From Myxococcus sp. (GTDB lineage: Bacteria > Myxococcota > Myxococcia > Myxococcales > Myxococcaceae): a DNA stretch of 42,413 nt. The position numbers and the translations under genes were made by a program. The notes beneath the pieces were generated by a model. It worked only from the letters and a program-made list of their open reading frames with translations, was not told where the DNA came from and ran no database searches. The stretch spans positions 1 through 42,413 of the forward strand of contig JACSRE010000197.1 in NCBI GenBank assembly GCA_014879945.1, written 5' to 3'. This document shows positions 36,472 through 41,147 of this stretch, piece after piece (the stretch's first letter is position 1; every line of letters starts with the position of its first letter).

Positions 36472-38204
36472 CGCGGCCCCTGTTCGAGGAGCGCACGGCC
36501 TGCGGCGCGCAGCCCATCGGCGTGAAGGCCGAGCGCGCGGCGCTGCGCGTTGGCCTCGCCATGGGGCACGAAGCGATCTCCCGGCAGGCTGACGCGGCCG
36601 ACGCGCGGGCAGAGCCCCTCGTCGGCGAGCACCTCGAGCACCGCGTCAGCCAGCCCACCGCGCGGCATCGCCTCTTCGGCGAGCAGCAGCGCGCCGCTCC
36701 GCGCCGCCTCGCGGACCCGCTGCCGGTCGAGGTTCGCGACGTCGCCGGCGTCGAGCACCGCCCAGGGCTGCCCACCGCACGCCTCGACGGCCTGGAGCCC
36801 CAGCACGCCCGACGTCACGAAGACGAGCGACGGCGCCTGGGCGCGCACCAGCCACCGGGTCTGGGGCGGCGGGAGGACCTCCTTCGGCCGCGCCCCGGTG
36901 ACGACCCCCCGGGGAAACCGAAGGGCTGACGGCCCCGAGCGCGCCACCGCCGCGTCGAGCAGCTCCGCCAGGTCGTCGGCGTACACCGGCGAGGTGATCG
37001 ACAAGCCCGGCAACGGACGCAGGAACGACACGTCGAAGCTGCCCTGGTGGGTCGCGCCGTCGGCCCCGACCAGCCCCGCCCGATCGATGGCGAAGATCAC
37101 CGGCAGCCGCGGGAGCGCCACGTCGTGGACGAGCTGATCGTACGCGCGCTGCAGGAACGTCGAGTACACGCAGACGACCGGCCTGGCGCCCGCCTTCGCC
37201 AACCCCGCCGCGAACGTCACGGCGTGCTGCTCGGCGATGCCGACGTCGAAGACGCGCCGGGGAAACCTCGCCTGCAGGGCCGACAACGAGCTGCCTTCGA
37301 CCATCGCGGGGGTGATCACCACCAGCGCGGGGTCGCGCTCCATGCGCGCCTCGAGGAGCGCCGCGAACGCGTCAGACCAGGTCGTCTGGCCCGGCCGCGC
37401 CCGCACCAGCTTGCCCGCGCGCAGCTCGTAGGGCCCCATGGCGTGCCCGCGCGTGCGGAGGTCGGCCTCGGCCGGTGAGAACCCCCTGCCCTTCTGCGTG
37501 CGCGCGTGCAGCACCACCGGCTTCGACGACGCCTTCGCCTGCCGGAGCGCCTCGATCAGCCCGTCGACGTCGTGCCCGTCGAGCGGCCCCACGTAGACGA
37601 ACCCCAGCGACTCGAAGAAGCGGCGGGCGTCGCTCGACAGCAGGCCGTGCACCGCGCCCACGTTCTGCGAGATGCTCATGCCGTTGTCGTTGATCACGAG
37701 GGTGAGCGGGCCCGACGCGACCGCGGCGTGGTTCAGGCCCTCGAACGACAAGCCCCCCGTCAGCGCGCCGTCGCCCACGATCGCCACCACGTGGCCCGGC
37801 TGCGCCGTCAGCCGCAGGCCCTCGAGCAGCCCGACCGAGACCGAGATGGCGGTGCACGCGTGGCCCGCGCCGAAGGCGTCGTGCGCGCTCTCCGACGGGT
37901 CGAGGAACGGCGCCAGCCCGCCTGCCTGGCGGAGCGTGGGGAGCCTCGCGCGGCGCCCGGTGAGGAGCTTGTGCGCATACGCCTGGTGCCCGACGTCGAA
38001 GACGAGCCGATCGACGGGGCTGTGGAACACGCGGTGGAGCGCGACGGTCAGCTCCACCGCGCCGAGCGACGCGCCCAGGTGACCGCCGACCTGCCCACAC
38101 ACCTCGACGATCGCCTCCCGCAGCTCGGCGCACAGCCCGGGCAACGCCTGGCTCGGCAGCGCCCGGACGTCGGCCGGAGAGTCGATGCGCTCCAACAAGC
38201 TCAA
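36468..38204 (-). CDS. dxs: 1-deoxy-D-xylulose-5-phosphate synthase (short form)
   Basis: A 578-residue thiamine-diphosphate enzyme that condenses pyruvate and glyceraldehyde 3-phosphate, the first step of the MEP isoprenoid pathway. Key segments are FDVGHQAYAHK, thiamine-binding GDGALTGG (144-151) to NDN (172-174), catalytic Glu in GIAEQHAV (E325), and YSTFLQRAYDQ. The TTG at 38204 overlaps the ispA stop (TTGA) with GGAG eight bases upstream. Compared with E. coli Dxs as I recall it, about 45 residues are missing between NVGAV (~185) and FFESLGF (~196-202), a linker that is not part of the active site. This probably explains the shorter length. Confidence 0.93.
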   Translation of the reverse strand: MSLLERIDSPADVRALPSQALPGLCAELREAIVEVCGQVGGHLGASLGAVELTVALHRVFHSPVDRLVFDVGHQAYAHKLLTGRRARLPTLRQAGGLAPFLDPSESAHDAFGAGHACTAISVSVGLLEGLRLTAQPGHVVAIVGDGALTGGLSFEGLNHAAVASGPLTLVINDNGMSISQNVGAVHGLLSSDARRFFESLGFVYVGPLDGHDVDGLIEALRQAKASSKPVVLHARTQKGRGFSPAEADLRTRGHAMGPYELRAGKLVRARPGQTTWSDAFAALLEARMERDPALVVITPAMVEGSSLSALQARFPRRVFDVGIAEQHAVTFAAGLAKAGARPVVCVYSTFLQRAYDQLVHDVALPRLPVIFAIDRAGLVGADGATHQGSFDVSFLRPLPGLSITSPVYADDLAELLDAAVARSGPSALRFPRGVVTGARPKEVLPPPQTRWLVRAQAPSLVFVTSGVLGLQAVEACGGQPWAVLDAGDVANLDRQRVREAARSGALLLAEEAMPRGGLADAVLEVLADEGLCPRVGRVSLPGDRFVPHGEANAQRRALGLHADGLRAAGRALLEQGPR

Positions 38205-39097
38205 CGGGTGCGCTCCACGGAGTAGTCGGCGAGGGCCGCGAGGGGGCCGGCGATCGGCTCGACGGTCTGCACGGCCTGCTTGGCGCGCTCGACGAGCTCG
38301 GCGGCCAGCCGCCGCGAGGCCTCGAGGCCCACCACCGCGGGGAAGGTGAAGCGACCCGCCGCGGCGTCGGCCCCGGCCGGCTTGCCCAACTGCTCCGCCG
38401 ACGCGGTCGCGTCGAGGAGATCGTCGGCGATCTGGAACGCCAGCCCCAGGTCTTCGCCGTAGCGGGCCGCGGCGCGGAGCGCGGCCTCGGAGCCCCCGGC
38501 GGCGAGCACCCCCAGCTGGCACGCGGCGGTGATCAACGCCCCCGTCTTCAGGCGGTGCAGCTGCATCAGGTAGTCCTGCGCGGCGGGCCGATCGTCGGCG
38601 ATGTCGAGCACCTGCCCGCCCACCATGCCGCCGGCGCCCGCCGCCAGCGCCAGCGTGCTCGCCATGCGCGCGCGGGTCACCAGCTCGGCGTCGGGCCCGG
38701 TCGCGATCACCGTGAACGCGTCGGTCAGCAGCGCGTCACCCGCGAGGATCGCCAGGGCCTCGCCGTACGCCTTGTGGCTGGTCGGGCGCCCACGGCGCAG
38801 ATCGTCGTCGTCCATCGACGGCAGATCGTCGTGGATCAGGGAGTAGGTGTGAATGCACTCGAGCGCGCAGGCGCCGTCGTCGGCCATCGCGCCCCCGCCG
38901 CCCAGCGCGTCCGCGAACGCCAGGCAGAGGACGGGCCGCAGCCGCTTGCCGCCGTCGAGGAGGGAGTACCGCATGGCCTCGGCGAGGCGCATCGGGGTTC
39001 TCGTCGCGATGGTCTGCATGCGGTCGGCGAGCAGGCGCTCCACGCGCTGCTGCGCGCCCGGGAGCCAGGAGGACAGGTCGAAGGCCATTGGCCGCAT
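38201..39097 (-). CDS. ispA: Polyprenyl diphosphate synthase (farnesyl/geranylgeranyl type)
   Basis: A 298-residue prenyltransferase that extends DMAPP with isopentenyl diphosphate. The first Asp-rich motif is DDLPSMD (90-96) and the second is DDLLD (225-229). GGKRLRP (49-55), GGQVLDI and LHRLKTGALI are conserved substrate-binding segments. The spacing and DDxxxxD form fit the bacterial FPP synthase group, but the chain length of the product is not certain. The ATG at 39097 is used; an ATG three codons later is equally plausible, and neither has a good ribosome site. It is directly followed by dxs, which supplies the pathway precursors. Confidence 0.92.
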   Translation of the reverse strand: MRPMAFDLSSWLPGAQQRVERLLADRMQTIATRTPMRLAEAMRYSLLDGGKRLRPVLCLAFADALGGGGAMADDGACALECIHTYSLIHDDLPSMDDDDLRRGRPTSHKAYGEALAILAGDALLTDAFTVIATGPDAELVTRARMASTLALAAGAGGMVGGQVLDIADDRPAAQDYLMQLHRLKTGALITAACQLGVLAAGGSEAALRAAARYGEDLGLAFQIADDLLDATASAEQLGKPAGADAAAGRFTFPAVVGLEASRRLAAELVERAKQAVQTVEPIAGPLAALADYSVERTR

Positions 39098-39131: not shown

Positions 39132-39467
39132 TTAGAAGGGCACGTCGTCGTCCTCGGCGGCAGGGGCCTGCCGTTTGGGCGCAGCGGCGGCGGGGGCCCG
39201 CGCCGGCGTCTGCGCCGCGGCCGCCGGGAGCTCCTTGACGTCGATGGGGGCGGTGCGGCCGTCCTCCGAGAGGAGCTGCTCGATGCGCTTCTCTGCGTCG
39301 GTGAGGAGCCCCTCGCCCTGCTTCACCAGGGTGATGCCCTCGGCGAAGCGCTCCAGCGAGTCTTCGAGCGAGAGCTCACCGCCCTCGAGCGCCTCGACGA
39401 TCGACTCGAGCCGCTTGACGACCTCGTCGTACTGCACCTTCCCGCCCGTCTGCGCCGGCTTCGCCAC
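39132..39467 (-). CDS. xseB: Exonuclease VII small subunit with SSB-like C-terminal tip
   Basis: A 111-residue protein. Residues ~11-68 are the XseB core helices (YDEVVKRLESIVEALEGGELSLEDSLERF and VKQGEGLLTDAEKRIEQLL-type). Several XseB chains coat the large subunit, and the enzyme degrades single-stranded DNA to short oligonucleotides. The core is followed by an Ala/Pro-rich linker (~80-104) and the last seven residues are EDDDVPF. This closely resembles the acidic C-terminal tip of SSB (DDDIPF), which recruits repair proteins. The gene lies three bases after xseA and ends 34 bases before ispA. The tail resemblance is seen in sequence; any binding role is inference. Confidence 0.93.
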   Translation of the reverse strand: MAKPAQTGGKVQYDEVVKRLESIVEALEGGELSLEDSLERFAEGITLVKQGEGLLTDAEKRIEQLLSEDGRTAPIDVKELPAAAAQTPARAPAAAAPKRQAPAAEDDDVPF

Positions 39468-39470
39468 GTC

Positions 39471-41147
39471 TCACCCCTGGTCCTTGCCATCGGCGCGCGA
39501 CTCGACGCGCACCTCGAGCCAATCGCCTCGATCGAGGCGCACCGTCAACAGATCTCCGCGCGTGACGTCTGCCGCGCGCCGCACCACGACGCCCTCGCGC
39601 GCGACGATCGCGTAGCCGCGCCCCAGCACCTTGAGCGGGCTCAGCGCGTCGAGGCGGGCGCTCAAGGCCTCGAGCCGCCTGCGGTCGCGCTCCAGCCGCC
39701 GCCGGAAGGCCACCGGGAGCGCGTCGCCCGCCGCGTCGATGCGGCGCCTGGCCTCGCGCAGGTGCGGGCGTGGGGTGGCGCGCTCGAGCGACAGCCGCAG
39801 CCGCGACAGGCGCGCGCGCTCGTCGCGAAGCCGCCGTGAGAGGCCTCCGCGTACCCGCGCCGACAGGGTGGCGAAGGCCGCCCGCCGCTCGGCCAGCCGG
39901 TTCTGAGGCCGCAGCCGACCCAGCCGCGCCTCGAGCTCTGCGAGGGCGCGCTGCCGCGTGCGCACCTGCCGCTCCTCGGCGCGCCGCAGCCGCTCGGCGA
40001 GATCAGACAGCCGCAGGCGGTGGGAGGTGAGCTGGCGGCGCGGGTCGGCCAGCGCGCCGCGGGCGGCCTGCAGCTGGTGGCGGGCTTCGAGCACCCGGCG
40101 CGCGGCCGCCTGCGCGAGGCGCCGCCGCGTGGTGCGCAGCCGATGCTGAAGGTCGGCCACCTCGGGCACCACCATCTCGGCTGCGCCGCTGGGCGTCGGG
40201 GCACGGTGATCGGCGACGAGATCGGCCAGGGTGACATCGACCTCGTGGCCGACGGCCGAGATGACGGGGATCGGGCTGTTGAAGATCGCCCGCACCACCC
40301 GCTCCTCATTGAAGGTCCACAGATCCTCCGCCGAGCCGCCACCGCGCGTCACCACGATCACGTCCACGTCGGTGCGCGCCAGCCACCGCAGCCCGCGCGC
40401 GATCTCGAGCGGCGCCTCGTCGCCCTGGACGCGGGCGTTGCAGAACAACACCGACGCCCCCGGGTGACGCCGGTGCAGCACCTTGAGGAAGTCGCGCCAC
40501 GCCGCGCCCGACGAGCTGGTGACGACGCCGATGCGCCGCGGCAGCATGGGCAGCGGGCGCCTGGGCCTGGTGCGCCCCTCGCCGATCAGCCCCTCTTTGA
40601 CGAGCTTCGCCTTGAGCTGCTCGAAGGCCAGCGCCATGGCCCCGACGCCCTCGGGCTCGAGCTTCTGGGCGATGAGGCTGTAGCGCCCCTGCACCTCGTA
40701 CAGGTTGAGCCCGCCCTCGATCAGCAGCGAGAGGCCGTCGCGCACCTGAAAGCGCAGCGTCTTCGCCAGCGTCTGCCAGACCCGCACGTCGAGCTGCGCG
40801 CCGGCGTCCTTGATCGAGAAGTAGAGGTGGCCGCGCACGTTGGGCCCGCGAAACCCCGTCACCTCGCCCCGCACGATCAGCCGCGAGAACCCGGGCTCGA
40901 CCGCGTCCTTCAGCTGGGCGGTCAGCTCCGAGACCGTCAAGATCCGGCGGGTCGGGGGCTCGGGCGCGGGCTTCCTCCAGGCAGGCACCGGTCGGGCCGG
41001 GGCCTCGGTGGCCGCCGGCGCGCTGGCGGGAGCCTCGACCGCTCGCGTGGGCGGCGCCGGCGCGGGGGTGGGAGGCGATGGGGCGCGCGCCGGTGACGCC
41101 TCTGGCGTGGGCCCAGGCGAGCGACCGAAGAGATCGCCCTGCTTCAT
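39471..41147 (-). CDS. xseA: Exonuclease VII large subunit
   Basis: A 558-residue catalytic subunit. The first residues are MKQGDLFG, followed by an unusually long Pro/Ala-rich linker (~9-65). The OB-fold domain starts near RRILTVSELTAQLKDAV (~67) and continues through VRGHLYFSIKDAGAQLDV. The catalytic region has VVTRGGGSAEDLWTFNEE, ISAVGHEVDVTLADLVADHRAPTPSGAAE, and a long Arg/Leu coiled coil (~350-480) before the closing GRGYAIV segment. Standard XseA is ~450 residues; the excess is mainly the N-terminal linker. The ATG at 41147 overlaps the upstream stop (ATGA), supporting this start and hence the QGDLF peptide. It cuts single-stranded DNA with XseB. Confidence 0.95.
   Translation of the reverse strand: MKQGDLFGRSPGPTPEASPARAPSPPTPAPAPPTRAVEAPASAPAATEAPARPVPAWRKPAPEPPTRRILTVSELTAQLKDAVEPGFSRLIVRGEVTGFRGPNVRGHLYFSIKDAGAQLDVRVWQTLAKTLRFQVRDGLSLLIEGGLNLYEVQGRYSLIAQKLEPEGVGAMALAFEQLKAKLVKEGLIGEGRTRPRRPLPMLPRRIGVVTSSSGAAWRDFLKVLHRRHPGASVLFCNARVQGDEAPLEIARGLRWLARTDVDVIVVTRGGGSAEDLWTFNEERVVRAIFNSPIPVISAVGHEVDVTLADLVADHRAPTPSGAAEMVVPEVADLQHRLRTTRRRLAQAAARRVLEARHQLQAARGALADPRRQLTSHRLRLSDLAERLRRAEERQVRTRQRALAELEARLGRLRPQNRLAERRAAFATLSARVRGGLSRRLRDERARLSRLRLSLERATPRPHLREARRRIDAAGDALPVAFRRRLERDRRRLEALSARLDALSPLKVLGRGYAIVAREGVVVRRAADVTRGDLLTVRLDRGDWLEVRVESRADGKDQG

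Follow-up and report, generated by a model that had tools for sequence, protein, structure and literature searches.

A putative SSB-like docking peptide at the C-terminus of the exonuclease VII small subunit of Myxococcaceae

The DNA analysed here (the window; 42,413 nucleotides, contig JACSRE010000197.1 of the GenBank assembly GCA_014879945.1, Myxococcus sp.) contains the genes of the large and small subunits of exonuclease VII (ExoVII), xseA and xseB. The features of the two genes are as follows.

39471..41147, minus strand: xseA, exonuclease VII large subunit, directly upstream of xseB (PF02601, E 1.7e-103; OB fold PF13742, E 1.1e-21)
41127..41141, minus strand: QGDLF, a beta-clamp-binding-like motif near the XseA N-terminus (conserved as QxDLF across Myxococcaceae)
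39132..39467, minus strand: xseB, exonuclease VII small subunit, 111 aa (PF02609, E 2e-16)
39276..39431, minus strand: XseB core helical hairpin, PF02609, aa 13-64 (Pfam; AlphaFold2 helices 13-28 and 34-69)
39156..39275, minus strand: Ala/Pro-rich linker, predicted to be disordered, with TAPI at its start (drift across genera; pLDDT)
39243..39254, minus strand: TAPI motif just past the XseB core (corresponds to the post-core PF of other XseB proteins and is distinct from the tip)
39135..39155, minus strand: EDDDVPF, the acidic SSB-like tip, forming the last seven residues of the protein (ORF translation, genome scan and family alignment)

The xseB reading frame begins with a GTG start codon, encodes the C-terminus ...KRQAPAAEDDDVPF and is closed by a TAA stop codon; the last residues of the protein are AAEDDDVPF, and a linker of about 40 residues precedes the tip. 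The gene adjoins xseA in the same orientation, and downstream of it lie a prenyl-synthase-like gene (38201-39097, minus strand) and a dxs-like gene; the order xseA, xseB, prenyl-synthase-like gene and dxs-like gene is common in bacteria. XseB is encoded once in the genome (G000). Its residues 13-64 matched Exonuc_VII_S (PF02609) with 60.2 bits (curated cut-off, 24), which was the only Pfam domain in the protein; the SSB-type OB fold (PF00436) was absent from it, the sole PF00436 match of the genome being located elsewhere (C326). In the AlphaFold2 model the core was a helical hairpin and the tail was predicted to be disordered (pLDDT below 50 for aa 79-105). Thus, the original prediction of an EDDDVPF tip at the very C-terminus after a flexible Ala/Pro-rich linker was confirmed by the reading frame and the predicted disorder.

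The occurrence of the tip was determined by a scan for reading frames whose last codons before the stop encode [DE][DE][ILVFM]PF. In the 7.7-Mb genome G000 exactly two frames matched this pattern, xseB and ssb, the single SSB gene ending in GGGDDIPF. Since these two genes are the only matches of the genome, the tip of XseB is beyond chance. For 69 listed Myxococcaceae genomes, the matches listed with a true stop codon comprised 67 SSB, at least 64 XseB and 26 other proteins, and a further 17 among those listed ended in TGG, which is not a stop codon. The 26 other bearers among the matches listed were mostly without an assigned identity, and some of them must be due to chance. In the tally there were 66 XseB-bearing genomes, of which two, G090 and G104, were without an XseB match among the matches listed; XseB of G090 ends in DDDTPF.

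Outside the reduced-genome genus g24, the tip was present in every Myxococcaceae XseB that was read (56/56, 20 genera). The original prediction had proposed a comparison with close relatives, and in this comparison the tip was found in all six other genomes of the same genus. In the 56 sequences, Phe (-1), Pro (-2) and Asp at -4 were each found in 56/56, Asp or Glu at -5 in 56/56 and at -6 in 54/56, and Val at -3 in 52/56; position -3 is mostly Ile in SSBs. The acidic pattern varied (PEDD, EDDD, DEDD, ELED), with P and F constant. For an estimate of conservation, one sequence per genus (20 Myxococcaceae genera) was aligned by the distance from the C-terminus. Positions -1, -2 and -4 were 100% identical in every pair, and position -3 was Val in all but three genera, two with Ile and one with Thr. 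Pairwise identity was about 15% in the linker, whose length between the core and the tip varied from 26 to 44 aa, compared with 66% in the core. The last five codons gave a pN/pS of 0.10, and the tip codons differed synonymously between genera. A conserved tip together with a drifting linker is the pattern to be expected of a short docking peptide carried by a spacer. The docking of the SSB C-terminus (SSB-Ct) follows known rules, namely a buried terminal Phe, an anchored carboxylate, Asp residues on a basic ridge and a spacer no shorter than 11-20 residues (PMC10164576). The sequence rules are satisfied by the XseB tail, which has a terminal Phe with a free carboxylate, Pro, a run of Asp and a spacer of 26-44 residues that is predicted to be disordered. 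Note that the affinity or the choice of partner may differ between XseB and SSB, because most XseB tips have Val at -3 where SSBs mostly have Ile.

The tip was also sought in XseB proteins of Myxococcota and Planctomycetota. It was absent from genus g24 (genomes of 2.1-2.7 Mb). It was also absent from the XseB of a second, divergent xseA-xseB pair in G083 and G084 (L067 and L068), so that the tip is a feature of the housekeeping enzyme. Elsewhere in the order the distribution among families was patchy: some members of f6, f7, f8 and f9 carried it (DDIPF, DEDVPF, DADIPF, DDNIPF and DEDLPF), and no XseB of f2, f3 or f4 did. In the sample from other myxococcotal families, 51/58 XseB were without any such ending, and in the rest of Myxococcota beyond the order the tip was found in 1/28 (PDKIPF, in one distant family). 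Planctomycetal XseB had the tip in 6/72 (for example, DDDDDIPF, DDDGIPF and NDNLPF) and were without any such ending in 51/72. The suggestion that the tip might be a feature of the wider XseB family was therefore mostly wrong. Since g24 and the majority of other XseB proteins of Myxococcota and Planctomycetota do without it, the tip is also not essential to ExoVII. Judged from taxonomy, two histories fit, an ancient tip with many losses or repeated gains. A comparison of the XseB core alignment with viral contigs yielded no relatives, and a tblastn search of plasmids for XseB yielded only a weak Vibrio xseB.

Endings of the LF or LFG type were observed on 14/72 planctomycetal XseB (L147, L148, L153, L155, L160, L161, L163, L166, L169, L230, L233, L236, L238 and L264). 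They were considered as variants of the SSB tip and rejected as such, because the SSBs of the same genomes mostly end in DDIPF, DDVPF or EPPF; possibly these endings represent another docking motif.

The original prediction had also noted that XseB proteins often have PF near the end, and took this as a hint that the tip may be shared more widely. This PF lies right after the core (for example, AVPFEPE and RTAPFSG), and it aligned here with TAPI/VAPL, not with the tip; moreover, XseB of L100 has both the post-core PF motif and a genuine C-terminal tip. By position, alignment and co-occurrence, the two are different features. XseB of E. coli ends in TPFTPDNE, which is the post-core motif, and has no linker with a tip.

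SSB-like tips were also found on proteins other than SSB and XseB. In the sister family f3, whose XseB is without the tip, 10 genomes from three genera encode a UvrD-family helicase with the C-terminus GDDVPF or GEDVPF (L200, L338, L339, L342, L343, L345, L349, L350, L351 and L360); the assignment was made by Pfam UvrD_C for L200 and by the shared C-terminal sequence for the rest. As in XseB, the hydrophobic position of the helicase tip is Val, compared with Ile in the SSBs of the same genomes. Apart from SSB, the tip thus recurs across genera on a subunit of a ssDNA nuclease and on a helicase. XseA as an alternative carrier of the tip where XseB is without it was ruled out, since no XseA C-terminus that was read ends in DDxPF. 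As separate observations, two families have a small protein of uncharacterised function (L181 and L197, sharing a PNYGRSKG region; L181 has no Pfam match) with the ending GDDDVPF or GDDDIPF, the endings SDDIPF and TDDIPF occur on phage-like proteins (L199, which has no Pfam match, and L365), and there were a few singleton bearers, among them L193 and L198.

The N-terminus of XseA bears a second motif. XseA in the window starts with MKQGDLF, and QxDLF, followed by a long divergent linker, was found at the start of all Myxococcaceae XseA N-termini read, with QKELF in g24; QFDLF, QGDLF or QLDLF was found in XseA of families f2, f7, f8 and f9 (QLDLF in f9). The loci with the motif are L034-L045, L298-L325 and, in the window, 41127-41141, minus strand. 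The motif resembles the consensus of beta-clamp-binding motifs, which is QL[S/D]LF, revised to Q-phi-x-[LM]-[FL], in a flexible region (PMC13254535). QADLF and QLDLF of the relatives fit the revised consensus, and the Gly at the second position of the present motif falls outside it. Clamp-motif-like sequences were also observed at XseA C-termini (QGNLF at the very end, or QSRLF; L113 and L175). The QxDLF motif suggests that ExoVII may dock on replisome hubs anyway, and if both motifs work, XseA would bind the beta clamp and the XseB tips would bind the partners of SSB. We tentatively propose, with rather more doubt than conviction, that mimicry of the SSB tip is a portable module grafted onto ssDNA enzymes and that myxobacterial ExoVII is a client of two hubs through its clamp motif and SSB-like tips. 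Such a client could take over the partners of SSB while removing the DNA of SSB.

As for the tip itself, we regard it as fairly probable that it is a mimic of SSB that docks ExoVII onto the partners of SSB. The tip, with its free C-terminal Phe, Pro, hydrophobic residue and acidic run, would hang on the linker, predicted to be disordered, and would insert into the SSB-tip-binding pocket of at least one SSB-interacting protein (such as RecO, RecG, PriA, RecQ or RecJ). The entry 8txr of ExoVII contains 16 XseB chains, which makes the originally supposed multiple copies per holoenzyme plausible. With so many chains, ExoVII would place a cluster of SSB-like tips near the ssDNA under degradation, and by this cluster it could retain the partners of SSB or pass them on while degrading the SSB-coated strand on which they had been bound. 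Binding to SSB-tip pockets, the identity of the partners and recruitment as the outcome are what we infer from the sequences. At the sequence level the mimicry originally proposed is strongly supported, by the C-terminal position, the spacer, the family-wide selection and the near-exclusivity with SSB. The recurrence of similar tips on XseB of other families and on the UvrD-family helicase of f3 also speaks for it. The best explanation of the whole, which we hold with some reserve to be correct, is that XseB of Myxococcaceae is a normal ExoVII small subunit with an added short docking peptide of the SSB-Ct type.

The main rival of docking on SSB partners is docking in cis, in which a pocket of XseA for the SSB tip, normally used for finding SSB-coated DNA, would be occupied by the XseB tips; this we consider unlikely, as we do its supposed effect, namely that the enzyme would be kept in check until SSB on the DNA displaces the tips, or that assembly would be helped. 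XseB tips would be present at a very high local concentration within the same complex. In addition, B. subtilis XseA belongs to the interactome of the SSB C-terminus, co-purifies with SSB and forms foci that need the SSB C-terminus (PMC3000357), so that XseA may own an SSB-tip site that the XseB tips could occupy; however, direct in vitro binding of XseA to SSB is given as ND in a table of the same paper. An AlphaFold2 model of an XseA-XseB fusion left the tip unplaced (pLDDT about 36), which argues weakly against docking in cis, as the alignment was shallow and the stoichiometry 1:1.

It is quite improbable that the acidic tip imitates DNA, lies over the OB fold of XseA or of SSB and in this way tunes the access of ssDNA independently of the pockets of SSB partners. 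XseA does have an N-terminal OB fold, and acidic tails that cover the protein's own DNA-binding cleft are known from ssDNA-binding proteins; however, a DNA mimic needs charge and not an invariant Pro-Phe, whereas in the XseB tip the charge pattern varies and P and F never do. Least probable of all is that the tip has no binding role and merely results from shared descent or from a tail that is acidic and of low complexity, a reading for which it may be said that many XseB tails are acidic and variable and that the purported SSB-like motif of DdrB is dispensable (PMC3834827), but which is already largely refuted by the three 100%-identical positions beside a drifting linker, the pN/pS of 0.10 and an ending shared near-exclusively with SSB genome-wide.

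The SSB tip has so far been treated as the recruiting device of SSB itself. If the preferred reading, docking on SSB partners, is correct, a nuclease with many copies of the tip would rival the SSB hub or enlarge it, and the tip would offer a concrete and readily testable answer to how ExoVII, whose cellular role is poorly defined, is wired into repair. Searches of the open-access literature found no paper in which an SSB-like tip is named for ExoVII.

Among known systems, the closest in sequence is the SSB-Ct (E. coli DFDDDIPF), which likewise has an extreme C-terminal [DE]DxPF after a disordered linker and follows the same sequence rules. The XseB tip differs from it in sitting on a nuclease subunit without the OB fold of SSB, in having mostly Val instead of Ile at -3, and in an acidic run longer than that of the SSB of its own genome. 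Compared with the known structures of the ExoVII small subunit (8txr and 1vp7), the core helical hairpin of the present XseB is alike (E 8e-10 to 8txr), and the match to 8txr ends at the core, with the linker and the tip lying beyond it. DdrB of Deinococcus radiodurans is likewise a non-SSB protein with a proposed SSB-like C-terminal motif; however, DdrB itself binds ssDNA and its motif is unnecessary for radioresistance (PMC3834827), whereas XseB is a nuclease subunit whose tip is conserved family-wide. In B. subtilis, ExoVII follows the SSB tip, whereas here the small subunit of ExoVII bears such a tip itself.
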